DNA of 31,172 nucleotides from positions 1 through 31,172 of the IMG/VR virus record IMGVR_UViG_3300029319_000288; one strand, written 5' to 3'. The DNA is from a virus. A model generated the notes under the pieces. That model was not told the origin of the DNA, did no database searches, and was given only the letters and a program-made list of their open reading frames with translations. Made by a program: the position numbers and the translations under genes. Position 1 is the first letter of the stretch, and each line of letters opens with the position of its first letter. Of this stretch, positions 6,904 to 27,100 are shown piece by piece.

Positions 6904-7064
6904 TGAGTTGGTTAGAAAAAATGTGGAGCAAAGTTACTGGTACTGAAAAAGTAAAAGTAAGAACTAGAAACAAAAAAGGACATTATGTAGCTGACGATAA
7001 ATCTACACCAGATGTAAATGAAGCTTGGACCACAAAAAGAGTAAAAAAATCTAAAGAGTCATAA
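6903..7064 (+). CDS. Tiny basic protein, 53 aa
   Basis: The frame starts at ATG 6903 (TAATG overlap with the lipoprotein stop; GAGGAA 7 bases upstream) and ends at TAA 7062-7064, which again overlaps the nuclease ATG. The product (MSWLEKMWSKVTGTEKVKV, then RTRNKKGHYVADD) has an amphipathic Trp-containing N-terminus and many Lys/Arg. No known family. The double overlap and good ribosome site argue that it is translated. Confidence 0.6.
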   Translation: MSWLEKMWSKVTGTEKVKVRTRNKKGHYVADDKSTPDVNEAWTTKRVKKSKES

Positions 7065-7444
7065 TGGCTAAATCACCTGATGCGTTTGTTTATAACGCCA
7101 CATTAGAACGAATTGTAGATGGAGATACATTTGATTGTTGTCTTGATTTGGGTTTTGATGTAAAGCTACATAAACAGCGTATCAGACTTGCAGGTATAGA
7201 TACACCTGAAAGTAGAACTAGAGATTTAGCAGAAAAAAAATTAGGTCTTGCTGCTAAAGAAAGATTAAAAGAGCTTTGTATTGGAAGTATTAAAGTTAAA
7301 TCTTTAGGTAAAGGCAAGTATGGTCGTATATTAGGCATACCTTATACAGAAGATGGCAGAGATATATGCCAAGTATTAATCAAAGAAGGTCATGCTGTAG
7401 AGTATCATGGGGGAACTAAGACTAAAGTTTGGGGTGATTACTAA
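7064..7444 (+). CDS. Staphylococcal-nuclease-like (SNase/thermonuclease) protein, 126 aa
   Basis: An OB-fold nuclease of the micrococcal nuclease family, which cuts DNA and RNA with calcium. The family's key residues are present in order: Asp21 in RIVDGDTFD, Arg41 in QRIRLAGID, Asp46 and Glu49 in GIDTPES, and Arg88 in GKYGRILG. These correspond to D21, R35, D40, E43 and R87 of the S. aureus enzyme. At 126 residues it is a minimal domain. There is no signal peptide, so it should act in the cytoplasm or be packaged, not secreted. Similar small SNases occur in marine phages. It could degrade host DNA or invading phage DNA. It sits upstream of the curli-like genes and is linked by one-base overlaps. 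Confidence 0.85.
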   Translation: MAKSPDAFVYNATLERIVDGDTFDCCLDLGFDVKLHKQRIRLAGIDTPESRTRDLAEKKLGLAAKERLKELCIGSIKVKSLGKGKYGRILGIPYTEDGRDICQVLIKEGHAVEYHGGTKTKVWGDY

Positions 7445-7794
7445 TGGAATCAGCTGTTACTTTAATTCAAGAGGTTGGGTTTCCTATTGCTGCTGCATTA
7501 GGACTTGGTTGGTTTATTTACAAACTTATTATGCGTATTGTTGATGGTATGGAAACTAAATTAGATACTGTTGATGAAAAAGTAGAAGGACAAATAGCAG
7601 CATTAGAAGAAAGACTTGGCACAAAACTTGATTCTCAACATGGTATTTTGGTAGCATTAATAGATAGAATAAGAAGTCTTGATAATGAAATAATAAGACA
7701 AGACACTTTAATTAAAACTATTTTAGGAATACCACAACTTATAGATAGCAATAAAATAGCAAAGGCAAATAGAGATGACCAAAGAAAAGATTGA
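7444..7794 (+). CDS. Small membrane protein with N-terminal helix and coiled coil; holin-like candidate, 116 aa
   Basis: Residues 8-30 (IQEVGFPIAAALGLGWFIYK) form one membrane helix, followed by a long charged coiled coil with VALIDRIRSLDNEIIRQDTL, a C-terminal layout I associate with small phage membrane proteins near holin genes. It has no cleavable signal, so it is probably N-out/C-in in the inner membrane. It overlaps csgF by 20 bases. It may be a BhlA-type holin-like protein, an anti-holin or a partner of the curli-like genes; position alone cannot decide. Another holin candidate and a true 3TM holin lie at 12.5-13.2 kb. Confidence 0.6.
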   Translation: MESAVTLIQEVGFPIAAALGLGWFIYKLIMRIVDGMETKLDTVDEKVEGQIAALEERLGTKLDSQHGILVALIDRIRSLDNEIIRQDTLIKTILGIPQLIDSNKIAKANRDDQRKD

Positions 7795-8275
7795 TACACA
7801 CGAAGTAGAAAAATATAGAATTATTATAAGTGTTTTATTCATAGGATTAATTTTATTTTTTGGTATATTAGCTATAAATATAAAAGCTGATGAAATGGTT
7901 TTTAAATTTAAAAATCCTAGTTTTAGTGGAGTAGGAACATCAGCACATTATCTTACAATAGAAAATCAAGAGTTTAATCGTAAAGAAGCACTTAGAGCTG
8001 AAATAAAAGCTTTACAGGAACAAATAGAAAGAGATAAAGAAAATACAACATTAGCTAGATTTATAAGAAATTTAGAATCAAGAATTTATGCACAACTATC
8101 AAGACAACTTGTAGAAAATTTATTTGGTGAAACACCAAGCACAGAAGGTACTCTAACATTAGAGGGAAATACAATTACATACAAAGTTGTTGATGGGATA
8201 ATAACACTAACTATAACGGACCAAGATGGAAATATTACAACGATTTCTTTGCCTGTCGGTAATTTTACTTTCTAG
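7775..8275 (+). CDS. csgF: CsgF homologue, curli secretion accessory protein, 166 aa
   Basis: In Escherichia coli, CsgF plugs into the CsgG pore through its N-terminal peptide and links the exported curli subunits to the cell surface. Here residues 16-36 are hydrophobic and cleavage is plausible after Ala38. The mature start VFKFKNPSF at 42-50 matches the conserved F-x-F-x-N-P-x-F of CsgF. It continues with HYLTIENQEFNRK, like the E. coli region after NPNFGG. The C-terminal beta region VDGIITLTITDQDGNITTIS parallels the E. coli end with its TDRKTGQTSTIQV. It is longer than the roughly 138-residue E. coli protein because of a 13-residue polar start and a central helix rich in Glu/Arg. Its last 50 bases overlap csgG, which is transcribed from the same strand. 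Confidence 0.85.
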   Translation: MTKEKIDTHEVEKYRIIISVLFIGLILFFGILAINIKADEMVFKFKNPSFSGVGTSAHYLTIENQEFNRKEALRAEIKALQEQIERDKENTTLARFIRNLESRIYAQLSRQLVENLFGETPSTEGTLTLEGNTITYKVVDGIITLTITDQDGNITTISLPVGNFTF

Positions 8276-9080
8276 CTGTGCTGTATTAAATGAAAATAGA
8301 GATTTAGCATTAACACAACATATTGAATCTAGTGCAATATTAAATTTACAATCAGAAGAACTTAAAAATTTATCTCCTGCAAAAATAAAACCCTCTGTAG
8401 CTGTATATCCAAATAGTTTTAGAGACTTAACAGGACAAAGAAAAAGTAATAGTTCTTTTGCTTTATTTAGTACTGCTATAACACAAGCTCCAGAAGCTTT
8501 TTTAATTAGAGCATTAAAACACGCAGCAGATGGAAAATTTTTTACAGTAGTTGAAAGAGTTGGTTTAGACAACTTAACTAAAGAAAGACAGTTAATAAGA
8601 AGCACAAGACAAGAGTTTAAAGAAGATAATAAGATGCAACCCTTATTATTTGCTGGACTAATCATAGAAGGTGGAGTGATTAGCTATGAAGCTAATCTTA
8701 AATCTGGAGGATTAGGTGCTAGATATTTAGGAATAGGTACTAGCAAACAATATAGAGAAGATACAGTAACTATATCATTAAGATTAGTTTCAGTATCTAC
8801 TGGAGAAGTATTAATAGAAACTTTAGTATCTAAAAGTATTGTCTCTACAAACATATCGCAAGATATTTTTCGTTTTATTGAAGCTGGAACAGAATTAGTA
8901 GAAGTTGAAGGCGGTATTGCAGAAAATGAAAGCGTTTCTATAGCTTTGCAAAAAGCAGTAGAAACAGGTATTTTAAATATAATTTATACAGGAATTGAGA
9001 GAGGTTACTGGGAATATGATGAAATTAAAATTAATGAGCCTAATTGTGATGCTGAGTGCATTAACAATATACGGGGCTGA
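8226..9080 (+). CDS. csgG: CsgG homologue, curli outer-membrane secretion channel lipoprotein, 284 aa
   Basis: CsgG forms a nonameric outer-membrane pore that exports curli subunits. The signal peptide ends in the lipobox L-S-S-C, with Cys18 as the lipidated residue. Family landmarks follow in order: VAVYPNSFRDLTGQ (58-71), the FSTAITQAPEAFLIRALKH segment, FFTVVERVGLDNLTKERQ, IIEGGVISYEANLKSGGLGA then RYLGIGTSKQY, VTISLRLVSVSTGEVL, and VETGILNIIYTGIERGYWE. Length is close to E. coli CsgG (277). The pore-constriction segment KSNSSFALFSTA keeps the Phe before STA (E. coli F56) but replaces N55 by Leu and Y51 by a polar residue, with one extra residue. The signal-peptide codons lie inside csgF, and the non-conserved 20-residue tail overlaps the next gene's signal peptide. 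Confidence 0.92.
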   Translation: MEILQRFLCLSVILLSSCAVLNENRDLALTQHIESSAILNLQSEELKNLSPAKIKPSVAVYPNSFRDLTGQRKSNSSFALFSTAITQAPEAFLIRALKHAADGKFFTVVERVGLDNLTKERQLIRSTRQEFKEDNKMQPLLFAGLIIEGGVISYEANLKSGGLGARYLGIGTSKQYREDTVTISLRLVSVSTGEVLIETLVSKSIVSTNISQDIFRFIEAGTELVEVEGGIAENESVSIALQKAVETGILNIIYTGIERGYWEYDEIKINEPNCDAECINNIRG

Positions 9081-9732
9081 TAATGAAATATATGTTGACC
9101 AATCAGGTGCAACAGCAAATATAGATTTAGAACAACTAGGAAATTCTAATATTATAGGCGGATTAAATTCTGTAGCTGGAACATTAACAGCATTAGACTT
9201 AGATGGTTTAAATCTTACATTAGACATTAATCAAATAGGTAATAGTAATAAATTTCTTGGAGATATTTATGGAGATAGTATTACAGGATTTTTTGAATTT
9301 GATGGAGATAGTAATACATTTACAATTCAAGGCGACCCAACAGATACTTATGGCATTGATAGTTCTAATTACAATGTAGATATAACAGGTAATTCTAATA
9401 CTTTTACTTTAGATACAGGTACATCTGCATTAGCAGCTACATTAGATTTAGATTGGATTATACAAGGCGATAGCAACACATTTGATTTTGATATTAATTA
9501 TGATGGTGCAACTAACTATGTAGATGTAGATGGAGATAGCAATACAGTAAACTTTACAGGAAGTGGATATGCAGGTGGATATTTCTATCTTGACCAAACA
9601 GGAAATAGCAGAACATTTAATGTTACACAAAGTTCAACATTGGTTTCAGATTGGCTTAAAATTACATCTATTGGCAATAGTGGTACTGTGTGCGTTGTTC
9701 AAAACGACCAAGGTACAAGCACAAGCTGTTGA
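9016..9732 (+). CDS. Secreted curlin-like repeat protein, candidate substrate of the CsgG pore, 238 aa
   Basis: I use ATG 9016 (or 9019) because it gives a clean signal peptide, MMKLKLMSLIVMLSALTIYG, with cleavage after Ala21; an upstream TTG is unlikely. The mature protein is acidic, low in Lys/Arg and built from eight units with G-(N/D)-S-(N/R/G), starting at about 9139, 9238, 9302, 9388, 9468, 9530, 9598 and 9670. The first two read QLGNSN and QIGNSN, matching the Q-x-G-x-x-N strand-turn of curlin repeats; later units keep GxSN-T-F but drift at Gln. This predicts a beta-solenoid like CsgA/CsgB, longer and more irregular. Two Cys occur near the end (223 and 238). Adjacent to csgG it is the obvious exported cargo, but whether it forms amyloid is inference. 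Confidence 0.72.
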   Translation: MMKLKLMSLIVMLSALTIYGADNEIYVDQSGATANIDLEQLGNSNIIGGLNSVAGTLTALDLDGLNLTLDINQIGNSNKFLGDIYGDSITGFFEFDGDSNTFTIQGDPTDTYGIDSSNYNVDITGNSNTFTLDTGTSALAATLDLDWIIQGDSNTFDFDINYDGATNYVDVDGDSNTVNFTGSGYAGGYFYLDQTGNSRTFNVTQSSTLVSDWLKITSIGNSGTVCVVQNDQGTSTSC

Positions 9733-10759
9733 TATTGGAGATATATCTGAACTAAATGGTTCAGCACAAATAGTAAGAGACAAGCCTTACGAAGCTAATT
9801 TACAGTTTGCAATACAAAGTAATGATGAAGCTATAACTACTAATGGTAGAATGGCTATTACATTTCTTGATGATTCTACTGTAAAACTTACAGAACATTC
9901 ACAATTAGTAATTGATGAATATATTTATGACCCAGACCCAAGTAAAGCAAAAATGGCTCTTACTTTTGGGCTTGGTACAGCTAGATTTATTACGGGTAAT
10001 CTTAATCGTATAGATAAACAAAACATAGAATTAAAAACACCAACTGCAAATATAGCTATACGAGGAACTGATTTTACGGCTACAGTTGATGAACTAGGGC
10101 GTAGCCTTATAATTTTGCTACCTGATGCTTTAGGACTTTCTAGTGGCGAAATAGAAGTAGTTACAGCTATGGGAACAGTAATATTAAATAAACCCTATGA
10201 AGCAACTACAGTTAGTGTATTTGAGTCTGCTCCAACTAAACCTGTTATATTAGATTTATCTTTAGACATTATTGACAATATGTTAATTGTTACACCCCCT
10301 AAAGAAGAAAATGTAATAGAAGAAGAAAGCACGACTTCACAAACAGATAGTGTATTAGATTTTAACGATTTAGATATAGATTATCTTGCAGAAGATTATC
10401 TTAAAGAAGATAGTTTAGAGTTTACAGAATTAGATATTAATTATTTAGATGTAAATTTTTTAGAAGATTTATTAAATGTTCTTGATGAATTAGATATACA
10501 AGAAGAAGAAGACCAGTTAGCCGAAGCAACATCAACACAAATTGTTGGAACTTTGTTAGGTAAAGACCCTGATACACAAATTACAACTTTAATACAAGGA
10601 GATGTAATTACATTACAAAGAAGTGTAAGTGAAAGTGTAAAATTAAATATTAATACAAGTGGCTCATATACAGTTATTTTTATACAAGATGGTATATCTA
10701 ATATTGTAAAAATTAATGGTGGTGGAGATTCTGTAATAACTATAAGACAGAGTGATTAA
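9620..10759 (+). CDS. Secreted FecR-domain protein with acidic linker and curlin-like C-terminus, 379 aa
   Basis: The ATG at 9620 gives a signal peptide with core LKLHLLAIVVLCALF and cleavage after VQAQA (mature from base 9728); upstream in-frame ATGs at 9563 and 9569 would only lengthen it. Residues about 40-190 match the FecR domain: DISELNGSAQIVRD, ITTNGRMAITFLDDSTVKLT, LTFGLGTARFITGNLNR, then IELKTPTANIAIRGTDFTA. FecR domains usually sit in the periplasm and relay envelope signals. Residues about 230-305 are extremely acidic with repeated LDI(D/N)YL-type units. The end carries IQDGISNIVKINGGG, matching the curlin Q-x-G-x-x-N motif. There is no membrane helix or sigma-factor partner. It directly abuts the CHASE2-cyclase start, a pairing also seen in bacterial genomes (recollection). 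It may sense or nucleate the exported fibre. Confidence 0.8.
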   Translation: MLHKVQHWFQIGLKLHLLAIVVLCALFKTTKVQAQAVDIGDISELNGSAQIVRDKPYEANLQFAIQSNDEAITTNGRMAITFLDDSTVKLTEHSQLVIDEYIYDPDPSKAKMALTFGLGTARFITGNLNRIDKQNIELKTPTANIAIRGTDFTATVDELGRSLIILLPDALGLSSGEIEVVTAMGTVILNKPYEATTVSVFESAPTKPVILDLSLDIIDNMLIVTPPKEENVIEEESTTSQTDSVLDFNDLDIDYLAEDYLKEDSLEFTELDINYLDVNFLEDLLNVLDELDIQEEEDQLAEATSTQIVGTLLGKDPDTQITTLIQGDVITLQRSVSESVKLNINTSGSYTVIFIQDGISNIVKINGGGDSVITIRQSD

Positions 10760-12517
10760 ATGAAGAAACTAATATTACCTATACTTATATTGCTTAGTTT
10801 ACCTTTATTATTTCAAAGCACACCTACTGAAATAATTAAATTAAAAACATTTGATGCTTTAATAAAAACTCCAGAGCCATCAGGTAATTTTGTAATACTT
10901 AATATTACAGAAGAAGATGTAGAACGAGAAGGTGGCTATCCATTACCCAGACAAAGATTAGCAGAAATACAATTAGATATTATAGGTAAAGGTGCTTTAG
11001 GTGTAGGCTGGGTTATATCTTTTCCACAAGCAGATAGAATGGGAGGTGATGAAAGTTTTGCAAGGTCTTTAGGTTATGCACCATCTGTTATAGCTATGTT
11101 TGAAGATGGTAAAGGTAATTACCCTAAACCAACTGGAACAGTTATATTTGGAGAAAATAATGGTGGTATAATTTCTATGGGAGTGAAGGAAAACCTGCCG
11201 TTACTATCCTCCAATTCACTAGAAGGTTTAGCCGTTGCTCCCGTTGATGTTGACCAATTAGTAAGAAGAATACCTTTATTAGTTAAAACACCTGATGACG
11301 AATGGATTCCTAGTTTTGGAACACAAATATACAAAGCTTTATTTAATGTAAAAACTTATATTATAAAAACTAATGATAATGGTATATCAGAAATATCAAT
11401 AAAAGGAATACCACCAGTTAAAACAGATAGTCTTGGTCGTAAGTGGATTAGTTGGGTTGATACGCCACAGACAAATTTACAAGAAATGAATGTAAATGGT
11501 AAGTTTGTTTTTATAGGTGTTACTGCTAACGGAGTAATGCCACAGATTGCTACTCCAGTTGGATTATTAGAACCACATAAAATACAAACAGCATTAGCAG
11601 AAAGCATATTAATAGAAAATAGTCCTTACATACCTGACTGGGCAATAAGTATTAACTTGTTAATATTTATAGTAAGCGTTTTTATTGTTTGGTTTGTACT
11701 TTTTTATTTTGGAATAACATGGGGAATAGTATTAAGTTTATTATCTATGTTTATTACAGGTAGTATTGGATATTACTTTATACAAAAAGGTTTATTAATA
11801 GATGTTACTTGGAGTTTAATATCTCAATTTATAACAGGTAGCATAGCTTTTTATTTAAGATTTAGAGAGCAATATAAATTAAGACAACAAATTAAAAAAC
11901 AATTTGAACATTACTTAGACCCAAGACAAGTAAAACAATTACAAGATAATCCAGAATTATTAAAACTAGGTGGAGAAAGAAAGTATTGTACTTTTCTTTT
12001 TACAGATGTAAGAGGTTTTACAAGTTTATCAGAAAAGTTAGAGCCAGAAAAAGTTACAGAAATTATGAACAAAGCTTTAACTATACAAGCTGATGCAGTT
12101 AAAAAGTATGGTGGTATGGTAGATAAGTACATTGGAGATGCCATGATGGCAATATTTAATGCTCCAATAAATATAGATATGCATGAAGATAGAGCTATAC
12201 TTACAGCTATAGAAATTAAAAAACAAATGCAAGAAGCTAACCTTGATATTAAAATAGGTATAGGTATAAATAGCGGAGATGCTGTTATTGGAAACATGGG
12301 TTCTAAAACTAGATTTGATTATACAGCTATAGGAGATGCAGTAAATTTAGCAGCAAGAATGGAAAGCAGTTGTAAAGAAGTAGGAAAAGATATAGTAATA
12401 GCAAAAAATACTGCAAAAGAAACAGATATTAAATTAGAAAAATTAAAACCAATAAAAGTAAAAGGAAAAGAAAAGGCAATAGAAATTTATACTATACAAG
12501 GAAATGAATATGGATAG
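10760..12517 (+). CDS. CHASE2-domain class III adenylate cyclase, membrane sensor, 585 aa
   Basis: Signal-anchor helix at 1-20, then an extracytoplasmic CHASE2 domain (about 25-290) with FVILNITEEDVEREGGYPLP, the ALGVGWVISFPQAD strand, a V-D-V-D-Q-L-V-R-R-I-P-L-L motif and GKFVFIGVTANG. Three membrane helices follow (about 294-367). The cytoplasmic class III cyclase domain (about 410-580) has both metal aspartates, Asp416 in FTDVRGF and Asp460 in YIGDAMMAIF, the substrate pair Lys456/Thr522 typical of bacterial adenylate cyclases, and the transition-state residues Asn529 and Arg533 in GDAVNLAARME. All catalytic positions are intact, so ATP-to-cAMP activity is expected. The ATG abuts the FecR gene stop in the same frame. 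A phage-borne, envelope-sensing cyclase is unusual. Confidence 0.93.
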   Translation: MKKLILPILILLSLPLLFQSTPTEIIKLKTFDALIKTPEPSGNFVILNITEEDVEREGGYPLPRQRLAEIQLDIIGKGALGVGWVISFPQADRMGGDESFARSLGYAPSVIAMFEDGKGNYPKPTGTVIFGENNGGIISMGVKENLPLLSSNSLEGLAVAPVDVDQLVRRIPLLVKTPDDEWIPSFGTQIYKALFNVKTYIIKTNDNGISEISIKGIPPVKTDSLGRKWISWVDTPQTNLQEMNVNGKFVFIGVTANGVMPQIATPVGLLEPHKIQTALAESILIENSPYIPDWAISINLLIFIVSVFIVWFVLFYFGITWGIVLSLLSMFITGSIGYYFIQKGLLIDVTWSLISQFITGSIAFYLRFREQYKLRQQIKKQFEHYLDPRQVKQLQDNPELLKLGGERKYCTFLFTDVRGFTSLSEKLEPEKVTEIMNKALTIQADAVKKYGGMVDKYIGDAMMAIFNAPINIDMHEDRAILTAIEIKKQMQEANLDIKIGIGINSGDAVIGNMGSKTRFDYTAIGDAVNLAARMESSCKEVGKDIVIAKNTAKETDIKLEKLKPIKVKGKEKAIEIYTIQGNEYG

Positions 12518-12722
12518 ATTATTAACTGTAAGAGATGTAGCTGAAGATTTAGCTATATCAAAAAAAGAAAATGAAGAGAGATGGAAAACAGCCTTTAATG
12601 AATTTTCTGATATAAAACAAGAAATAGGTAGTATTAATAACACAATGCGTATGGCTACTTTTGGAGTATTTGGATTTCTTGGTGCTCTAGCTATCGCAGT
12701 AGTAACAAGTATGATGGTATAA
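12510..12722 (+). CDS. Small coiled-coil protein with C-terminal membrane helix; holin-like, 70 aa
   Basis: I choose ATG 12510 because AAGGA lies about 7 bases upstream; an ATG two codons earlier is possible. Residues 1-45 are polar and helical (VAEDLAISKKENEERWKTAF, then FSDIKQEIGSINNT) and the end is one hydrophobic helix (FGVFGFLGALAIAVVTSMMV). Small one-helix proteins like this next to phage lysis genes often act as holins, pinholins or holin regulators. It overlaps the cyclase stop by 8 bases and precedes the 3TM holin by 2 bases. The role is inferred from place and shape only. Confidence 0.6.
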   Translation: MDRLLTVRDVAEDLAISKKENEERWKTAFNEFSDIKQEIGSINNTMRMATFGVFGFLGALAIAVVTSMMV

Positions 12723-12724
12723 AA

Positions 12725-13204
12725 ATGAAAGGATTATTAAAAAATATAGTTGGTGCAGTAGCACCTACAATAGGTTCAGCTATGGGCGGTCCTCTTGGTA
12801 ATATGGCTATGGGTAAAATAGCAGAAGTTTTGGGAGTATCTAATGACCAAAAATCTGTACAACAGGCTATGCAAAATGCAACTCCAGAGCAAATGTTAGA
12901 GCTTAAAAAAGCAGAAAAAGAGTTTGAAGTACAAATGAAAGAACTTGATGTAGATGTATTTAAACTTGAAACACAAGATAAACAACATGCTAGAGGTATG
13001 TTTAGTAAAGACTGGACTGCTCGTATTATAGGTTTGTTTACTATAGGTGGATTTCTTGGTTATATATTTTTAGTAACATTACAACCACCAGAACAAAATT
13101 CAGAAGCATTAATAAATTTAGTGTTAGGTTATTTAGGAGGACTTGCAAGTGCAATTATTTCGTTCTATTTTGGAGCATCTCATACCAACGATAAGGGAGA
13201 GTAG
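12725..13204 (+). CDS. 3TM holin-like protein (GTA_holin_3TM type), 159 aa
   Basis: The N-terminal segment (LLKNIVGAVAPTIGSAMGGP) is Gly/Ala-rich and weakly hydrophobic, the middle is a charged helix, and two strong membrane helices follow (ARIIGLFTIGGFLGYIFLVT; LVLGYLGGLASAIISFYFGA). KDWTARIIGLFTIGG followed by ISFYFGASH is the pattern I associate with the three-helix holin family found with gene-transfer agents and marine phages. Holins open the inner membrane so that the lysozyme can reach peptidoglycan. The lysozyme gene starts 1 base after its stop, supporting the lysis assignment. Confidence 0.75.
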   Translation: MKGLLKNIVGAVAPTIGSAMGGPLGNMAMGKIAEVLGVSNDQKSVQQAMQNATPEQMLELKKAEKEFEVQMKELDVDVFKLETQDKQHARGMFSKDWTARIIGLFTIGGFLGYIFLVTLQPPEQNSEALINLVLGYLGGLASAIISFYFGASHTNDKGE

Positions 13205-13205
13205 T

Positions 13206-13649
13206 ATGGAAATATCACAAGAAGGTTTATCTTTAATAAAAAAGTTTGAAGGTTGTGAACTTAAAGCCTATAAATGTGCAGCAGATGTATGGACTATAGG
13301 ATATGGAAGTACTAATGATGTAAAAGAAGGTATGGAAATATCACAAGAAAGAGCAGATATGTTACTACTTGAAGATGTAGAAGTATTTGAAGAAGCTGTA
13401 AATAATTTAGTTGAAGTAGATTTAGAACAAAATCAATTTGATGCTCTTATATCATGGACATTTAATCTTGGACCAACTAATTTAAAAAACTCTACTTTGT
13501 TAAAAGTATTAAATAATAAAGATTATGATGGAGTACCTGCACAAATAAAAAGATGGAATAAAGCAGGTGGTAAAGTATTACAAGGTTTAATAAGAAGAAG
13601 AGAAGCAGAAGCCTTATTGTTTGAAGGCAAAGAATGGCATGAGGTATAA
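13206..13649 (+). CDS. GH24 phage lysozyme (endolysin), 147 aa
   Basis: A glycoside hydrolase 24 lysozyme that cuts the glycan strands of peptidoglycan. The catalytic signature is E-8aa-C-5aa-T: Glu15 in KKFEGCE, Cys24 in AYKCAAD and Thr30 in VWTIGYGST. Cys in place of the T4-type Asp is known in many phage members of the family. FDALISWTFNLG then RWNKAGGKVLQGLIRRREAE follow as expected. ATG 13206 is chosen because of the AAGGGAGA just upstream. There is no signal peptide or SAR helix, so release should depend on the holin. The 20 bases around the start recur at 13330-13349 inside the gene. Confidence 0.9.
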   Translation: MEISQEGLSLIKKFEGCELKAYKCAADVWTIGYGSTNDVKEGMEISQERADMLLLEDVEVFEEAVNNLVEVDLEQNQFDALISWTFNLGPTNLKNSTLLKVLNNKDYDGVPAQIKRWNKAGGKVLQGLIRRREAEALLFEGKEWHEV

Positions 13650-13651
13650 CT

Positions 13652-15520
13652 ATGCCGTTTGCAAAGTTTAAATTTAAACCCGGAATAAATAAAGAAGGAA
13701 CTAATTATTCTAATGAAAATGGTTGGTTTGATGCTGATAAAATTAGATTTAGAAAAGGCAGACCAGAAAAAATAGGTGGTTGGGAAAAATATTCTTCTAA
13801 TACTTTTATAGGAACTTGTAGAAAAATTCATGTATATAGAGATATAGAGACAAACCAATATAAAATATTAGGTACACATAAAAAACTTTATGCATTACAA
13901 GGAGATGTGTATAACGACATAACTCCTATTAGAAGCACAACATCTGCAGGAGATGTAACTTTTGCAGCAACTAATGGAAGTTCAACAATTACAGCAACCG
14001 ATACTTCTCATGGTGCAGTAGCAGGAGATTTTGTTACATTTAGTGATGCTGCTACTTTAGGTGGAAATATTACAGCAGCAGTTTTAAATCAAGAATATGA
14101 AATAGTTTCTATACCTACTACTAATACATTTACATTTGTAGCTAAAGATACAAGTGGAACTGAAGTAACTGCAAACAGTAGTGATAGTGGTAATGGTGGT
14201 AGTTCTACAGTAGGTACTTATCAAATTAATGTAGGATTAGATGTATATGTATCATCAACTGGTTGGGGTGTAGATACATGGGGTGCAGGAACATTTGGTT
14301 CTGCAACAGCTATATCTTTAAATAATCAATTAAGATTATGGACAATAGATAATTTTGGAGATGATGTTATAGCAGCACCTAGAGGTGGACCTATATATTA
14401 CTGGGACGAGTCTAGTGGTTTAGGAACAAGAGCAGTATTAGCTAGTAGCAGAAGTGGTGCAAGTAATACACCAGTAGCAGTATCTCAATTATTAATGTCA
14501 GATGTGGACCGCCATGTTATAGCTTTAGGTTGTAATCCAATAGGTTCATCTACCATTGACCCTTTATTGGTTAGATTTTCAGATGCAGAAAATGCAGTAG
14601 ATTGGACACCAACAGCAACAAACTCTGCTGGTGGAGTAAGGTTATCTACAGGAAGTTTAATAGTAGGTGGTTTACAAACAAGACAAGAAATACTTATATG
14701 GACAGATGTAGGTGTAGTTTCAATGCGTTTTGTTGGGCAACCTTTTATATTTAGTTTTAACGAAATAGCAACAGGTATGTCTTTAATATCTCCAAATGGT
14801 GCAGCTACTGCAGGTGGAGTAGTTTACTTTATGGACGATGGAGCTTTTTATCAATATGCAGGTTCAGTACAAAAATTACCATGTACAGTATTAGATTATA
14901 TATTTAGTGATTTTAATAAAGGACAAGCTTATAAAGTTTTTGCAGCACCTAATCCTAAATACAATGAAATTATTTGGTTTTATCCTAGTGCTAGTTCAAC
15001 AGAAATAGATAGATATGTAACCTATAATTATTTAGAAAATAGTTGGAGTATAGGAACAACAAGCGATGGTTTTGTTAGAACAGCTTGGAACCCAGCTTAT
15101 AGTTTAGACTATCCTATAGCTGCTAGTAAAAATGATGACTCTGGATTAAATTATTTATATAACCAAGAGTTCGGTTGTTTAGCAGATGGTAATGGATTTA
15201 CTGCTTTTATAGAGTCATCTGATTTTGATTTAGACCCAGCCGGAGAAAAGTTTATGTTTATGTCTAAATTAATACCAGATTTAGAATTTAGAAAATCATC
15301 TGATACAGGTAATACAGTTGATTTTATAATTAAAGGAAGAGATTATCCTTTACAAGATTTATCTACATTATCTACAACATCTGTTACACCTAGTTCTACA
15401 TTTGCAAACATCAGAGGTAGAAGCAGACAAAGTGCAATAAGAGTTAGTAACTCTACTGGTAATTTTGGTTGGCGATTAGGCGATATAAGATTAGAATTAA
15501 GACAAGATGGTAAAAGATAA
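13652..15520 (+). CDS. P22 gp10-like DNA-stabilisation / tail protein, 622 aa
   Basis: Starts PFAKFKFKPGINKEGTNY and continues NGWFDADKIRFRKGRPEKIGGWEK, the hallmark opening of a large marine-phage protein family annotated as packaged-DNA stabilisation or tail protein. An Ig-like insert (DVTFAATNGSSTITATDTSH through GGSSTVGTYQI) lies at about 100-190. A beta-propeller-like body follows with NQLRLWTIDNFGDD, TRQEILIWTDVGVVSMRFVG, VVYFMDDGAFYQYAGSV and YVTYNYLENSWSIGTTS. The end WRLGDIRLELRQDGKR is also typical. It probably seals the neck below the adaptor. Length is normal for the family. Confidence 0.8.
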   Translation: MPFAKFKFKPGINKEGTNYSNENGWFDADKIRFRKGRPEKIGGWEKYSSNTFIGTCRKIHVYRDIETNQYKILGTHKKLYALQGDVYNDITPIRSTTSAGDVTFAATNGSSTITATDTSHGAVAGDFVTFSDAATLGGNITAAVLNQEYEIVSIPTTNTFTFVAKDTSGTEVTANSSDSGNGGSSTVGTYQINVGLDVYVSSTGWGVDTWGAGTFGSATAISLNNQLRLWTIDNFGDDVIAAPRGGPIYYWDESSGLGTRAVLASSRSGASNTPVAVSQLLMSDVDRHVIALGCNPIGSSTIDPLLVRFSDAENAVDWTPTATNSAGGVRLSTGSLIVGGLQTRQEILIWTDVGVVSMRFVGQPFIFSFNEIATGMSLISPNGAATAGGVVYFMDDGAFYQYAGSVQKLPCTVLDYIFSDFNKGQAYKVFAAPNPKYNEIIWFYPSASSTEIDRYVTYNYLENSWSIGTTSDGFVRTAWNPAYSLDYPIAASKNDDSGLNYLYNQEFGCLADGNGFTAFIESSDFDLDPAGEKFMFMSKLIPDLEFRKSSDTGNTVDFIIKGRDYPLQDLSTLSTTSVTPSSTFANIRGRSRQSAIRVSNSTGNFGWRLGDIRLELRQDGKR

Positions 15521-19891: not shown

Positions 19892-21148
19892 ATGAATATA
19901 ATACAACTAGAAGATAATTTAAAAAGCTTACCAGATAATAGCTTACAAAAAGAAATGACCAACCCTAGTGGTATGTTCCCGCAGTATTTAGTTATGTCTG
20001 AAATACAAAGAAGAGAAGATATGCGTAAAGATTATGAAGGTCGTATGGCAGCTAATGAAAAAACCCCACCACTCCCATCAATGCGTGAAGAAATGTTGAT
20101 GGGTATAACTCAACCACAACCCCCTGTGCAGGACAGCGGCATAGCAGGATTACTACCAGCTCAACCACAAGGAGCACCCATACCACCAGCTATGTCCGCT
20201 AGTCCTGATGTTATGCCTATGTATGGTGGCGGAGTTGTAGGTATGGCTCCCGGTACAGAAGTGCCTGATTTATTTGGTTTGACTACAGATGAATTAAAAT
20301 TTGCTGGTTTATATGACGACCCAGATACACCAGAAGATGAAAGAATAACAGGTTATGAAAAAACAATAATGGATTATTATGCAACTTTACAAAAAGAACA
20401 ACCTGAAAAAATAGAACAAGAAAGAAAATTTGGAGAAGGTTTAAACCTTATGAAAGCAGGTCTTACACTAGGAACAGCAGCAACTTTTAAAGATTTAAGT
20501 AAAGGACTAGAAAAAACTATAGATAGTATAGATGCAAGTAATAGAGCTATATCTAAAAAAGAAGATGATTTGAAAAAATCTAAACTAGAAGAAGCAAAAG
20601 CTATGGCTGGTATTGAAGCTGTAAGAGATAAAAAATTAATAGACTTATCTAAATTAAAAAGTGAAAAACAATCTAAACAAGCTTTAGCTGATTATTATAA
20701 ATCTATGGACCCTAATCTGAAAAAAGCTAATATAGAATTAATAGCTGAATATTTAAAAAATTCAGATAAAGAATCACAAACATTACCAATTTATGATATA
20801 AACGAATCTGGAGACAAAGTTGTAAATAGACAAAAATTATTAGAATTTGCTAATCAATTCCAGACATCAGGATATGCAGCTGATATTAGACAAGAAACTA
20901 AAATATTAGAAGAATTTAATACTACTGTTTCAGAAGAATTAAGCAGTGCATCTACAATACTAGAAATATTTGACATGGCTAAAGAAGATGGTATATCAAT
21001 AGAAGATGCAAGAGAAAGAGTTAAATTAAGAATAGAAGCAGATGTAGCTAAAAGATTAGGTATTTCTATACAACCAAAATATTCTGGTGGTGTTGTTGGT
21101 AAATCTGCTCAAAGTTTTAATGATGTGGTAAAAACCATCAATGCCTAA
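19892..21148 (+). CDS. Virion protein of a conserved marine-phage family, 418 aa
   Basis: Opens NIIQLEDNLKSLPDNSLQKE, then MTNPSGMFPQYLVMSEIQRRED, a motif shared by many marine-phage late proteins. A Pro-rich stretch (about 55-105) holds SMREEMLMG and MYGGGVVGMAPGTEVPD; the rest is charged coiled coil (LEKTIDSIDASNRAISKKED). The last 30 residues repeat a GGVV element (YSGGVVGKSAQSF). It ends 8 bases into the giant polyvalent gene, so both are probably co-translated and co-packaged. Likely an ejected or scaffold-like protein; function not established. Confidence 0.7.
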   Translation: MNIIQLEDNLKSLPDNSLQKEMTNPSGMFPQYLVMSEIQRREDMRKDYEGRMAANEKTPPLPSMREEMLMGITQPQPPVQDSGIAGLLPAQPQGAPIPPAMSASPDVMPMYGGGVVGMAPGTEVPDLFGLTTDELKFAGLYDDPDTPEDERITGYEKTIMDYYATLQKEQPEKIEQERKFGEGLNLMKAGLTLGTAATFKDLSKGLEKTIDSIDASNRAISKKEDDLKKSKLEEAKAMAGIEAVRDKKLIDLSKLKSEKQSKQALADYYKSMDPNLKKANIELIAEYLKNSDKESQTLPIYDINESGDKVVNRQKLLEFANQFQTSGYAADIRQETKILEEFNTTVSEELSSASTILEIFDMAKEDGISIEDARERVKLRIEADVAKRLGISIQPKYSGGVVGKSAQSFNDVVKTINA

Positions 21149-24100
21149 GTTTGTTGAAACACCTGATGGAATAATACACCAGTTACCTGATAGTGTAACT
21201 GACGAAAACTATTTAGAAGAAAAAGAAAAGTTTTTAGCTAACTATAGAATATCCCAACCCCAAGAAGATTTCCCTTCAATAATCCAACCTGAACCTCAAC
21301 CCGAACCTCAACTTGAATCTGAAACTTCAGATACATTTAGTCCTTTTCGTTTTCAATCTGTACCGGAAGCTGCAGGAAATTTTTTACAAGGTTTTGATAT
21401 AGCACGACAATATGCGAAAGCAAAAAGAGGTTATACCGAAGAAGATTTAGATAGAAGTAGTATTAGATTACAAACAAGAGGTTCTTTTTCAAAGTTATTT
21501 AAAGAGCAAGATGCTACATATAAAAGATTCAATTTACTACAAAGAAAAGCAGAACTAGAAAATGAAAGATTAGAAATTTTATCTAAAGATATTTTAACTA
21601 CAGAAGATAAAAATAGATTACTTGAAATAGATTCTATATTTAAAGGAAAAAAATTTGAGTCAGAAGAAGAAAGATTAAAAGCTGAAGAACTATATAAAAT
21701 AGGAGTAGATACAGGAGATGTTCTACCATATGAAGACATAGAAGCTTACCAAGATAATATATATCAAAATATAGGATTAGACAAAGCTTTAGAAATAGAA
21801 ACAGAAATAAGAGATAGGTCTATAGAGTTTCAATCAGGTATAAAATATTCTAAAAGTTTTGAAGATTTAGCTCGTGCTTCATCTTTTGATGAATCTATGG
21901 AGATATTTTTATCTGACCCATTAAGTTTAATGGGACAAGTATTAGCTTCAAGTTCAGCACCAATGACTGTAAGTTTAACTGCTGGTATTGGTACAACTTT
22001 ATTAACTCGTAATCCATATGCAGGTGCATTAGCAACAGGTACTGCTTCTGGTTCAGTTGATGCAGTTTATTCTTTTACAGATTATATGCAAAAACAAGGT
22101 GTTGATATATACAACGATGATGAGGTTGTAAAATTTTTACAAGACCCAGAAAAAGTAGCAGCTGCTAAAAAATATGCAAGAACAAGAGCAACATTTATAG
22201 GTGCTTTTGATACATTATCTTTTGGTTTTGGTTCTAAGATAATAGCACCCGTTAGATTAGGCTCTGCTTCTAATAGAGCATTATTTAATTCAATAGTAGT
22301 TCAACCACCATTACAAGCAACATTAGGTGCATCAGGAGAATACTTTGCTCAATTAGCTACTTTAGAAGAAGGGGAAACAATACGAGTTGGTGAAGTATTT
22401 ATGGAAGGTATAGGAGAATTAGCTTTTGCTCCTGTAGAAACAACATTAGCCCAAGCAGGTACACGATTTGCAGATTACAAAAACATACAAAGAGAAGCTG
22501 CACAAAAACAACAAGAAAGATTTAATAATTTTAAAACAAATTATGCAAATTTAACTGAAGAACAAAAAAGAAATTTTGATATAAAGTTTGAAGAAACTTA
22601 TGAAACAATACAAAACAATAATCCAGACAAATCTACAAATGAAATACTTGATTTAACTTTAAAGGAAGTTGGAATAACAGATGAAATTCTTGAAGCTCAA
22701 AAAATTATTGAAGAAAATCCACTAGAAAATTTAGCATATAATGAAACTGGAACAAGAAATGAAACTGCAGTTGTTCCAAATCAAAATGGAACTTTTGATG
22801 TTATAACCGGAGATACAAGTCAACCTAATAATTTTAGAGTTCTTCGTACTTATGATAATGTTGAAAGAGCAGCAAAGGTTTCACAAGAATTAAACTTTGA
22901 TATAAATACATATGTAAATAGACAAACATTTGAACAAGATGCGGTAATGCAAAATTTAGACATTACTAATCCATTTGTAGAATCTTATGCAAATAACAGT
23001 TTAAATACTGTGCTTGATGGAATAACTTTTGGAAACATAGAAGATGCAGGAGTTTCTCCAGAAACTATAGCTCTTTTAAAAGATATAGCACAAAATAATT
23101 ACTATATATCTCCTGAAGTTTTAAAAGCAAACTTATCTAAAAAAGAATTTGATGCAGTCATGCGAATAAAAGCAGACACATTAAATGCTAAACCTAAAAA
23201 GTCTATATCAAGTACAGCGTTTAATACTTTATTAAATAATAAAAATGTTGAAAGTAATATTAATTCAGATAGTTTTAAAAGATTTGCACTTCAATTTACT
23301 GGGGAACAAGATGTAAATAAAATGAGCATAGCTCAAAAAAGAGTATTGTTTACTTTATTAGAAAACTTACCAGCTTCTCCAGACAAAATAAATTTACCAG
23401 ATTTTACTCCTAGAAGTTTTAATGTTGATGATTATAACAAAGCAAAAGCAGAAATAGAAAAGCAAGGTAAAGCTACATTAAAAATAATACAAGAAGCAAC
23501 AGGTTTAAATAAAGTATCTGCAAAAAGAATAATGGAGTACTTTGTTACTGCTGGTTATGTTAATAAAAAAGGTAATAAGTTTGAGTTTGTTGGAACAGAA
23601 AATCAAATCTATAACATAGATGGTACTCGTAGATTAACTTCAGATATTGAAATAAATAAAGATATTGAAAATGTTAAACAAACACTTGTTAATGACACAA
23701 CAATAAATCCAAATGTTCGTTCAAAAGTAGCAACTTTTTTAGATGAATTAACAGACCCTAATATTATTGACAGAGCAGGTGGTAGTTATAATCCTATATT
23801 TAATGAAATACTTTATACAGTAGATAAAGCAGATTTAAACTTACTAGACAAAAAATCAGACCAATATAATCCAAAAGAATTTTTAGCTACATATGCTAGG
23901 TTACAAGGACATGAAAACTTTCATGCATTAATTCAAGCAGGGTTATTTACACAACAAGAAATAGATGCACTTACAAATTATGCAACTAATAAAAAAATAA
24001 GTTCTAAGCTAGAAAAAGCATTACAAAGAAAATTTAATACACAAGAAAAATATTCTGATAAAACATATCTTAAATTTGCAACTGAACAATATACAGGTGT

Positions 24101-27100
24101 AGAAGGATATGAAAGTCCTGTAGATATATTAGAAGAAGGTATGGCTTTAGTATTTGAAGACTATATAACAACCAATGCAAAAATTACTGGCAGACCAAGA
24201 ACAACTTTACAAAAAGTATCTAACTTTGGAAAAGCTGTAGGTAATGCTTTAGTTAATAATGGATTTCTTACAGTAGAAAATATTGTTGATAAAACATTAC
24301 AAGGAAAAATAGCAGATAGAAATAGAGGTGTATCAAATAGAATTAAAAATACAACCACATTATTTAATTTACCCGAACAAAAAGATGTAATTGTAGCTGA
24401 TGAACCAAGTGTTAAATTTTCTTTAAGAGAAACAAATGCTAGATTAACTGATAACACTAAAGAAAGGTTAGAACAAGAGTCGGGTGCACCTACATTAGAA
24501 GGACATTTTAGACAGTTATATGGAAGTATTCCATCAATACCGCCACCTATAAAAGATTTTTTAAGAGATGCCAAAGGAGAAGGTTCAGAATATATAGCAC
24601 CATTATTAGATATGGGTCCTACTGCTTTTGTACAAAATAGAGTAAAAGATTCTAAAACACAAACAGGTTATTATCCTTTTGAATATCCAAAAGACTTAAC
24701 TGTAAATCAAGCACAACAAATTTTTGATGGCATAAATAGAGTAACTAAAGAATCTATAGCATTATTTCCTGATGAAGTAATGGTATATAGAGGTAGCCGT
24801 ATAGATGATAGTTTTAATTTAATACCTGTAACTACCAATAAATATATAGCAGAAATGTTTGGAAAAAACCAAGAAAGAAGACAGGAAAATGTAGAAGCTT
24901 TTTATTTTTCAGAACGATTAAATGAACAAGGTATAAGTTTACAACAGTTTGCACAAGATATAGAAAATCTTACAGCAAATCCAAGAGATGTGGCTAAGTA
25001 TGGATATGATGTTAAAAGATTTATTTTACCCAAAGATTCTATTGTAGCTAATATGGAAGCTTTATATGCTGGTGAATCAATGTTAGGTGGTATGTTTGGA
25101 GATAGATACAATTATAAAGGAGAACAAGAGTTTTTAGTTCCTAGAGAATTGTTAATAGATGACTTTGGCAATACTACAGGCAGACAAGTTTTAACAGCTC
25201 ATCTTTCAGAATACAGTAAAATTAAAAGAGAAAGAATGAGAATAGCAAAAGAGTTTGAAACTTTAACATCTGGTGTATTTGGCATACCTGAAAATTTAGT
25301 AACAACTTTAACACCAGAACAAGTTATAGAAGAAAGAAAAAATTTAATTAAATTAGCTAAGTCTCCACAATATCAAAAACAAAATATAGCTTATGAAGAT
25401 TTATATGCTTTAGTTACACACCCAGCTATGATAGCTACACAAATAGAAGCTTTAAATATTCTTGATGTTTATGACAATTTAACTCTAGCACAAATAAATC
25501 AAAGAATAGATGATATGCGACCAGAGTTAATTAATACAGCTGGAAAATATGCAGGTGGTGGAGAAAATGTAAAACAAAATAGAAAAGCAGTTATAGTAAT
25601 TGGACCACCGGCTACAGGTAAATCAACATTTGCTGAAGACATAGCTGCAAGAGAAGGCTATGCAATAATTGATTCTGATGATGCTAAAAAAATAATGCCT
25701 GAATTTAATAATGGTATAGGTGCTAATGCTACACATAAATTTTCTAAAATAGTTTCTAGTAGAATTGCACAAGAACTTATAGACCAAGGTTTTAATGTAA
25801 TACTTCCAAAAGTTACTGGCAAATCAGATTTTCGTCAACAACCAGACCAAACAAAGTTAAATGATTTAATTTTAAGTATAGAAGATTTACAAAGTAAAGG
25901 ATATAAAGTAGATGTTGTTTATCCAGATGCAAACATTAATCAAGCATTAGTAAGAGCAGTTACTAGATTTGGTGAAACAGGAAGATTTGTAAATATAGAT
26001 TATTTATTGACAATAGATAATAAAGTAAGAGACACTTATAATGCATTAAAAGAACATTTTAACGCTGATACTACAGATGATGTAGGATTTACCTACATTA
26101 ATAATAACTTTAAATTAGGAGAGCACATTGTCGAAGAAGATACCGCCCAACTATTTCAAGACGATAGAATCGTTGATAGAGATAGAGGTAGAAGCAGAAA
26201 ATATAGCCAAAGAAATGCACAAAAAATCACCCAAGAGGAATCCGCCCTTATCGGAATTGCTGAAGAGCAAAAACAAAACTCAATAGCAGCAGGTGTAACA
26301 CCTGTAATAAATACTAACGCTGACCCAAAAGCTGTAGCTTCAGCAGTAAAAGCACAACAAGAAATTAAAAATAGTACATCTGAAAATAATACAGATGTAG
26401 ATTCTATTATTTCTGATATACCAAATAATATTAAATTAAAATATTCATTTAATAAAAATAATAATCCTTTAAATAAAAATGCTGAAGAGTTAATAGAAAA
26501 TTTAACAGTAAGAGATGACACGATTGAAAGCAAAACAACCGGTCAGCTTATATTAGAGGGTTTTAAATCTGTTGACCCTTTAGCAACTAGAGAAGCTTTT
26601 ATAGACCAATATGCAAGATTAGCAGAAACAGATTACAAAGCAGGTAGAAAAAATAAATATGGAGATAAAACTTTACTTGCTAGTATGTCAGCAGGTGCAG
26701 CTTTATATTTTTCTGACAGGTCAGGAGATATATTTCAACAATCATTTTTAAGAGGTGTTCCTGTATATGATAAAAATAAAGGATACACTTATGTAACTGA
26801 TATATCTCCTATAGATAATCAACCAATAGTTCCATACTTTGAAGTATTTAAACCTGCTTTTAAAAATCCTAATTTACTTTGGGCTTTTCAAGCAGTACAA
26901 AGAGTTAAAAGAGAAACAAGGTTTAATAAAGAAGGTAGAAAAGTAAAAGTAACAGCAGCCGATAGAAAAAGAGCTAAACAAGCTTTAAAAGATTATCCTG
27001 AATTACAAACTATGATAGATAGTTATAACAGAACTAATGAACATACAGTTCAATTCTTAGTTGATACAGGTGTATTAGATGAAAAAACAGGTAAAGAGTG

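Follow-up and report, generated by a model that had tools for sequence, protein, structure and literature searches.

Genes of the type VIII secretion system (T8SS), the curli system of E. coli, have been described in several phages. CsgF and CsgG were reported in pelagimyophages, where sibling capture was proposed and CsgE was not regarded as essential (PMC7029224, 2020). For the module of the phage Melnitz, lysis timing was proposed (PMC9004378, 2022), and CsgF, CsgG, curlin repeats, FecR, and cyclase are all annotated in the GenBank records of this phage. CsgF, CsgG, CsgA/B, FecR, and adenylate cyclase were then found together in pelagipodophages and pelagimyophages, with a 'histidine kinase' gene preceding csgF, and the spread of the module through the ocean was described (PMC9599517, 2022). 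Here we analyzed a 31,172-base marine virus record (IMG/VR record IMGVR_UViG_3300029319_000288), referred to as the window, which carries such a module at 7775-12517 together with an upstream gene at 7444-7794, all on the + strand. The locus is real and conserved, and it belongs with the phage type VIII (curli) secretion module described in those papers. A sequence-only reading of the window had considered the combination of cargo, FecR, and cyclase undescribed, and this claim fails because PMC9599517 and the Melnitz GenBank annotation already hold all parts. What is new here is the correction of two gene labels, those of the upstream gene and of FecR, and the apparent capture of the module by bacteria. 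The genes of the module are arranged as follows.

7444..7794, + strand: small protein with one transmembrane (TM) segment, 116 aa, first module gene (phrog_18771, 2e-17; overlaps csgF by 20 bases)
7775..8275, + strand: CsgF homologue, extracellular curli pore/assembly factor (PF10614, 1.1e-20; phrog_35372, 2e-45)
8226..9080, + strand: CsgG homologue, outer-membrane lipoprotein pore (PF03783, 3.9e-49; CsgG structures, 1e-44; lipobox)
9019..9732 (start 9016/9019), + strand: secreted curlin-like repeat protein, putative fibre subunit (signal peptide; QxG..N positions; beta-solenoid model)
9620..10759, + strand: secreted protein with a FecR domain, an acidic disordered linker, and C-terminal strands of the curlin type (PF04773, 1.7e-9)
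10760..12517, + strand: CHASE2 - class III adenylate cyclase (PF05226, 1.2e-23; PF00211, Guanylate_cyc, 8.5e-22)

Pfam places CsgF, CsgG, FecR, and CHASE2 plus Guanylate_cyc at the genes named by the sequence-only reading, and its assignment of 7775-9080 to CsgF and CsgG is thereby upheld. The dense packing on one strand is also borne out, as the open reading frames (ORFs) from 7444-7794 to the cyclase overlap or abut by 20, 50, about 65, 113, and 0 bases. The one linked gene that had been missed is 7444-7794, which lies 5' of csgF and overlaps it.

Searches with CsgG of the window, CsgG of HTVC008M, and combined CsgG queries recovered 240 loci from IMG/VR. Loci recur between scans, so the numbers refer to loci rather than to independent viruses. 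CsgF, CsgG, the repeat protein, FecR, and the cyclase are all present in 87 of the 88 viral loci having more than 6.5 kb after csgG, and the order recurs in these as well as in HTVC008M and Melnitz. The suggested phage-encoded export module, with cargo, FecR, and cyclase, is thus kept as a unit. Assembly chimerism is excluded because 87/88 viral contigs with enough sequence carry the gene set, the gene order being repeated in about 240 loci. The order of small gene, csgF, csgG, repeat, FecR, optional further repeat, and cyclase (hol-F-G-r-FecR-[R]-AC) spans podophage-like contigs of about 50 kb to a contig of 357 kb; close relatives of the window module sit on contigs of about 57 kb (L003, L006). 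The cyclase gene is inverted in L060-L062, L075, L076, L078, and L081. Small upstream genes occur in about 227 of the 239 viral loci with csgF, lying 5' of csgF in 217 loci and forming an inverted pair 3' of the cyclase in 10. The largest contig (L288, 357,559 bases, module at 8001-8789 and flanks) is viral, possibly from a jumbo phage, and has its small genes inverted downstream.

We then inspected the upstream gene, whose PHROGs family is phrog_18771. Nineteen diverse members, mostly of 84-117 aa, have one N-terminal hydrophobic segment followed by a helical tail (ALIDRIRMLDNDMIRL), and none of them contains HisKA/DHp or HATPase domains (Pfam, E up to 0.1). The 'histidine kinase' label of PMC9599517 is ruled out for this gene by the absence of a kinase domain; the match to the published gene is drawn from its position, its number (one or two), and a remark on its shortness, not from a comparison of sequences. 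Small genes of the window and a relative show weak matches to holin-family PHROGs (phrog_4898, 1e-4; phrog_1296, 0.01). Among 50,697 phage records, homologues of two small-gene queries were found in HTVC008M and Melnitz only, both of which carry curli genes. By its sequence, the upstream gene is a member of a module-specific family of small 1-TM proteins.

In the secretion proteins, the mature N-terminus of CsgF, FKFKNPSFSG, is conserved, and the window CsgG has the lipoprotein signal LLSSC (lipobox LSSC) and matches solved E. coli CsgG structures at 1e-44. The listed start of the repeat protein, 8995 (TTG), lies 5' of the signal peptide, and 9016/9019 was taken as the start. That this is a secreted curlin-like protein, as proposed from the sequence, agrees with its family: homologues exceed the Curlin_rpt cut-off (Melnitz, 8.6e-6; second repeat protein of HTVC008M, 5e-8), and the QxG..N positions are invariant in 25 homologues. 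Its model is a beta-solenoid with a predicted local distance difference test (pLDDT) score of 86, nearest by Foldseek to phage 'Curlin associated' models (1.3e-4). The window protein hence qualifies as a curlin-repeat secreted subunit (CsgA/CsgB), for which export and amyloid assembly are predicted.

The listed FecR frame is 9563-10759, with ATG 9620 as the likely start. In the model (pLDDT 79, residues numbered from base 9641), a signal peptide is followed by residues with a FecR fold (about 33-191), an acidic and disordered linker (215-270), and a C-terminal beta stack of six strands (314-370). Foldseek matched it to FecR/PupR-type anti-sigma signalling domains (7e-5 to 3e-4) and, more weakly, to the 'cell surface anchoring domain' 5ix9 (4.5e-3). 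The C-terminal motif [ILVY]x[ILVT]xQ is shared by 182/184 FecR proteins, 54/65 second repeat proteins, and 78/209 first repeat proteins, compared with 18/817 control ORFs; in many of the other first repeat proteins, a Cys variant stands at the end, e.g. VCVVQNDQGTSTSC. With this ending in common, the proteins may also be exported or assembled in the same way. The PF04773 match, the motif, and the model together confirm a FecR-domain secreted protein with a curlin-like C-terminus. No cytosolic anti-sigma domain was found in the window protein, which has the FecR domain and signal peptide only. It looks like a secreted substrate or anchor, not an iron regulator.

The cyclase has all catalytic residues noted previously (D416, K456, D460, D520, N529, and R533), which makes it a class III adenylate cyclase by residue content, with activity predicted. 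Across 135 module-locus cyclases, the metal-binding Asp residues are present in 135, the Arg in 133, and the Asn in 127. Ser replaces the transition-state Asn in six, Melnitz included. The Melnitz cyclase (L083, 12649-14700), like a few relatives, lacks both the transition-state Asn and the purine Asp, and may therefore be inactive or altered. Among 8 genomes of the genus of a Pelagibacter metagenome-assembled genome (MAG), the sole cyclase above the cut-off is a 596-aa phage-type frame in the MAG itself, which holds a phage contig. A FecR-domain gene directly followed by a CHASE2-type cyclase gene was also seen in a Polaromonas MAG (L306, 4951-8459), where no csg gene lay in the stretch read.

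The gene set csgF-csgG-rep-rep-fecR-AC also occurs in two Caulobacteraceae MAGs from freshwater, on contigs of 82.6 kb (L087, 9405-15425) and 32 kb (L088, 8310-14367). Bacterial genes flank both modules, such as acyl-CoA dehydrogenase and amidohydrolase in the former and an S9 peptidase in the latter. The two modules share 87% identity across 6 kb, and the DNA around them shows no similarity. They occupy unrelated sites, and their G+C is 2-10 points below that of the flanks. In the CsgG, FecR, and cyclase trees, the Caulobacteraceae copies group with contigs L221-L228 inside the viral set, and L228 holds terminase and portal genes. These viral relatives of the Caulobacteraceae CsgG were found by an alignment query and not by a single-protein query. 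An outgroup position of the Caulobacteraceae copy is rejected, as it is nested in three trees, with a p value of 0.005 in the approximately unbiased (AU) test, in which the grouping (viral rows without Caulobacteraceae copies) was picked after the tree was seen. The module is present in 2/7 genomes of the genus. In wider samples searched with FecR, nothing beyond the MAG itself was found in 299 genomes of the order (E<=1e-50) or 399 of the phylum (E<=1e-36), and 385 genomes of the class gave FecR-domain matches only (E>=6e-36). FecR and the cyclase are not usual parts of bacterial csg operons either, since neither occurs in the csgF/csgG loci of five other alphaproteobacterial genomes (18 kb read; in one of them, L302, csgG was lost among overlapping frames in ORF picking). 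The simplest reading is that the Caulobacteraceae module was probably transferred from virus to bacterium, the remaining alternative being an error in MAG binning. The small membrane genes of the phages are lacking in these modules, and hence the six genes F-G-r-r-FecR-AC look like a self-sufficient core.

Structural genes lie upstream of the window module, and the following genes lie downstream.

12504..12722, + strand: coiled-coil and C-terminal TM protein, 72 aa (sequence; weak phrog_5932, 0.003)
12725..13204, + strand: 159-aa membrane protein, holin-like, adjoins the module (PF11351, GTA_holin_3TM, 0.05, sub-threshold; phrog_1544, 2e-27)
13143..13649, + strand: T4-type lysozyme (endolysin), adjoins the module (PF00959, 5e-50; phrog_7, 2e-63)

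The first of these, a lysis-cassette candidate, probably lies outside the module proper. A virion protein at 13652-15520 shares 31-40% identity with proteins of Pelagibacter phages HTVC023P and HTVC027P, Roseobacter phage CRP-901, and phage DSL-LC04, which makes it probable that the window comes from a podophage allied to the HTVC023P group. Elsewhere in the window, a Staphylococcal-nuclease-type protein (7064-7444; PF00565, 1e-13) lies directly 5' of the module, a ferredoxin-family PHROG match (87-761; phrog_3704, 6e-29) is near the window start, and 21141-29135 encodes a 2664-aa protein with weak PHROG matches only, the first 1000 residues of which had no match in phage records.

We favor, with moderate confidence, a reading in which CsgG and CsgF export curlin-type fibres, FecR anchors or nucleates them, and the cyclase reads the envelope. 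Judging from homology, a CsgG nonamer capped by CsgF would form a pore in the host outer membrane during infection, and one or more curlin-like repeat proteins would be exported through it as a surface fibre. FecR would be a periplasm- or surface-anchored substrate whose folded domain should stay inside, and its C-terminal strand stack could, like CsgB, serve to nucleate or cap the fibre. The CHASE2 sensor, periplasmic by family, could sense either the FecR domain or the fibre state; in SAR11-type hosts, no receptor for the cyclase output is obvious. The small membrane proteins encoded before csgF would be specific to the phages and may act in the inner membrane or in lysis timing. The benefit of the module would most likely be an altered surface of the infected cell before lysis, through aggregation or shielding from other phages. 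Several observations weigh against this reading. The window repeat protein scores 17.2 bits for Curlin_rpt, below the cut-off of 20.7, and its model has no significant match among PDB folds. Targeting of CsgA to CsgG is N-terminal, unlike the FecR tail, which would pass through CsgG C-terminus first. CsgE is a periplasmic gate in E. coli and is reported lacking in alphaproteobacterial-type modules; in our search, CsgE (PF10627) was found in 0/15 records, with the E. coli positive control recovered. The Ser at the transition-state Asn means that cyclase activity may be dispensable in some loci. Melnitz-infected OM43 cells showed no clumping (PMC9004378).

The lysis view of PMC9004378, in which CsgG/CsgF and small holin-like proteins form a gated conduit that depolarizes or permeabilizes the envelope, appears improbable to us. 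Lysis timing had also been raised by the sequence-only reading, and part of its basis stands, as the module adjoins lysis genes in the window and many podophage-like contigs; the small membrane proteins, moreover, are phage-only, match holin families weakly, and are absent in Caulobacteraceae. In HTVC008M, however, the module lies between ssb/oxygenase genes and baseplate genes and not beside lysis genes, and hence the lysis linkage is not general. An ordinary endolysin is present in the phage, a conduit would not need the conserved curlin-like cargo, FecR, and cyclase, and a lysis device would hardly be retained by bacteria, as the six-gene core apparently was. It is likewise doubtful that the module is a regulatory circuit, in which FecR relays an iron or envelope signal and cAMP from the cyclase switches host genes (PMC9599517 and the earlier reading). 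The cyclase residues are largely conserved, and the Polaromonas genes without csg neighbors may be a functional pair. Nevertheless, the signal peptide implies that FecR is wholly exported, with no cytosolic anti-sigma part, and the cyclase gene, being inverted in several contigs, need not be co-transcribed. A cyclic nucleotide (cNMP)-binding domain was found in none of 13 virus records and in 18/297 genomes of the order of the Pelagibacter MAG, where 17 are low-scoring (mostly one 870-aa protein) and 1 is of CRP size. These counts, which also weigh on our favored reading, weaken the proposed coupling to host cAMP, and they make a CRP-type response unlikely in the case of a SAR11-like host.

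Import through the pore, suggested in PMC7029224 and PMC9599517, would require the channel without CsgE to be open or gated by the FecR tail, admitting larger molecules as a periplasmic gatekeeper. The missing CsgE and the resemblance of the FecR tail to a substrate end fit this idea, whereas export is indicated by CsgF and by the conservation of secreted repeat proteins, and a CsgG channel of about 13 A (PMC9004378) is narrow; we regard import as highly improbable. A bolder version of the export reading is unlikely, though conceivable: the module would be an independent virus-borne secretion lineage with a design of its own. In it, FecR would be a nucleator anchored at the pore, its folded domain kept in the periplasm and signalling fibre export to the CHASE2 cyclase; the phage machine would be completed by small inner-membrane proteins in pairs, and bacteria would have taken over the viral system as a domesticated surface-fibre operon.

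Viral curli-type modules are widespread in the ocean, and the FecR tail gives a testable idea of a substrate or anchor. The apparent error in the histidine-kinase label affects published models of regulation. The bacterial copy nested among viral ones would represent the passage of a multi-gene surface apparatus from a virus into a cell, and the Caulobacteraceae copies provide non-viral relatives for studying the six-gene core.

Compared with the pelagiphage T8SS module of HTVC023P-type podophages and pelagimyophages (PMC9599517), which has the same genes and order, an optional second CsgA/B-like protein, and no CsgC/D/E, the window has a single upstream gene and lacks the second repeat protein. 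Our description differs in that the upstream gene is not a histidine kinase and FecR is read as a secreted substrate or anchor, and it adds the phage relatives of the Caulobacteraceae copies, the 357 kb contig, and the bacterial capture. Methylophilales phage Melnitz and Pelagibacter phage HTVC008M have syntenic homologues with 31-45% identity to the window; unlike the window, each carries two upstream genes plus another repeat protein, and the Melnitz cyclase has Ser at the transition-state Asn. FecR/PupR cell-surface signalling anti-sigma regulators share the fold of the periplasmic FecR domain with the window protein, which differs in lacking the cytosolic anti-sigma domain, in its export by signal peptide, and in its curlin-like C-terminus. 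E. coli curli (csgBAC-csgDEFG) has in common with the window the CsgG fold and residues, CsgF, and curlin-type repeats. In contrast to E. coli, the window lacks CsgE, has FecR and a cyclase in addition, and encodes a longer and more divergent repeat protein; in an alignment read by eye, its CsgG keeps the constriction Phe but not the Tyr and Asn.

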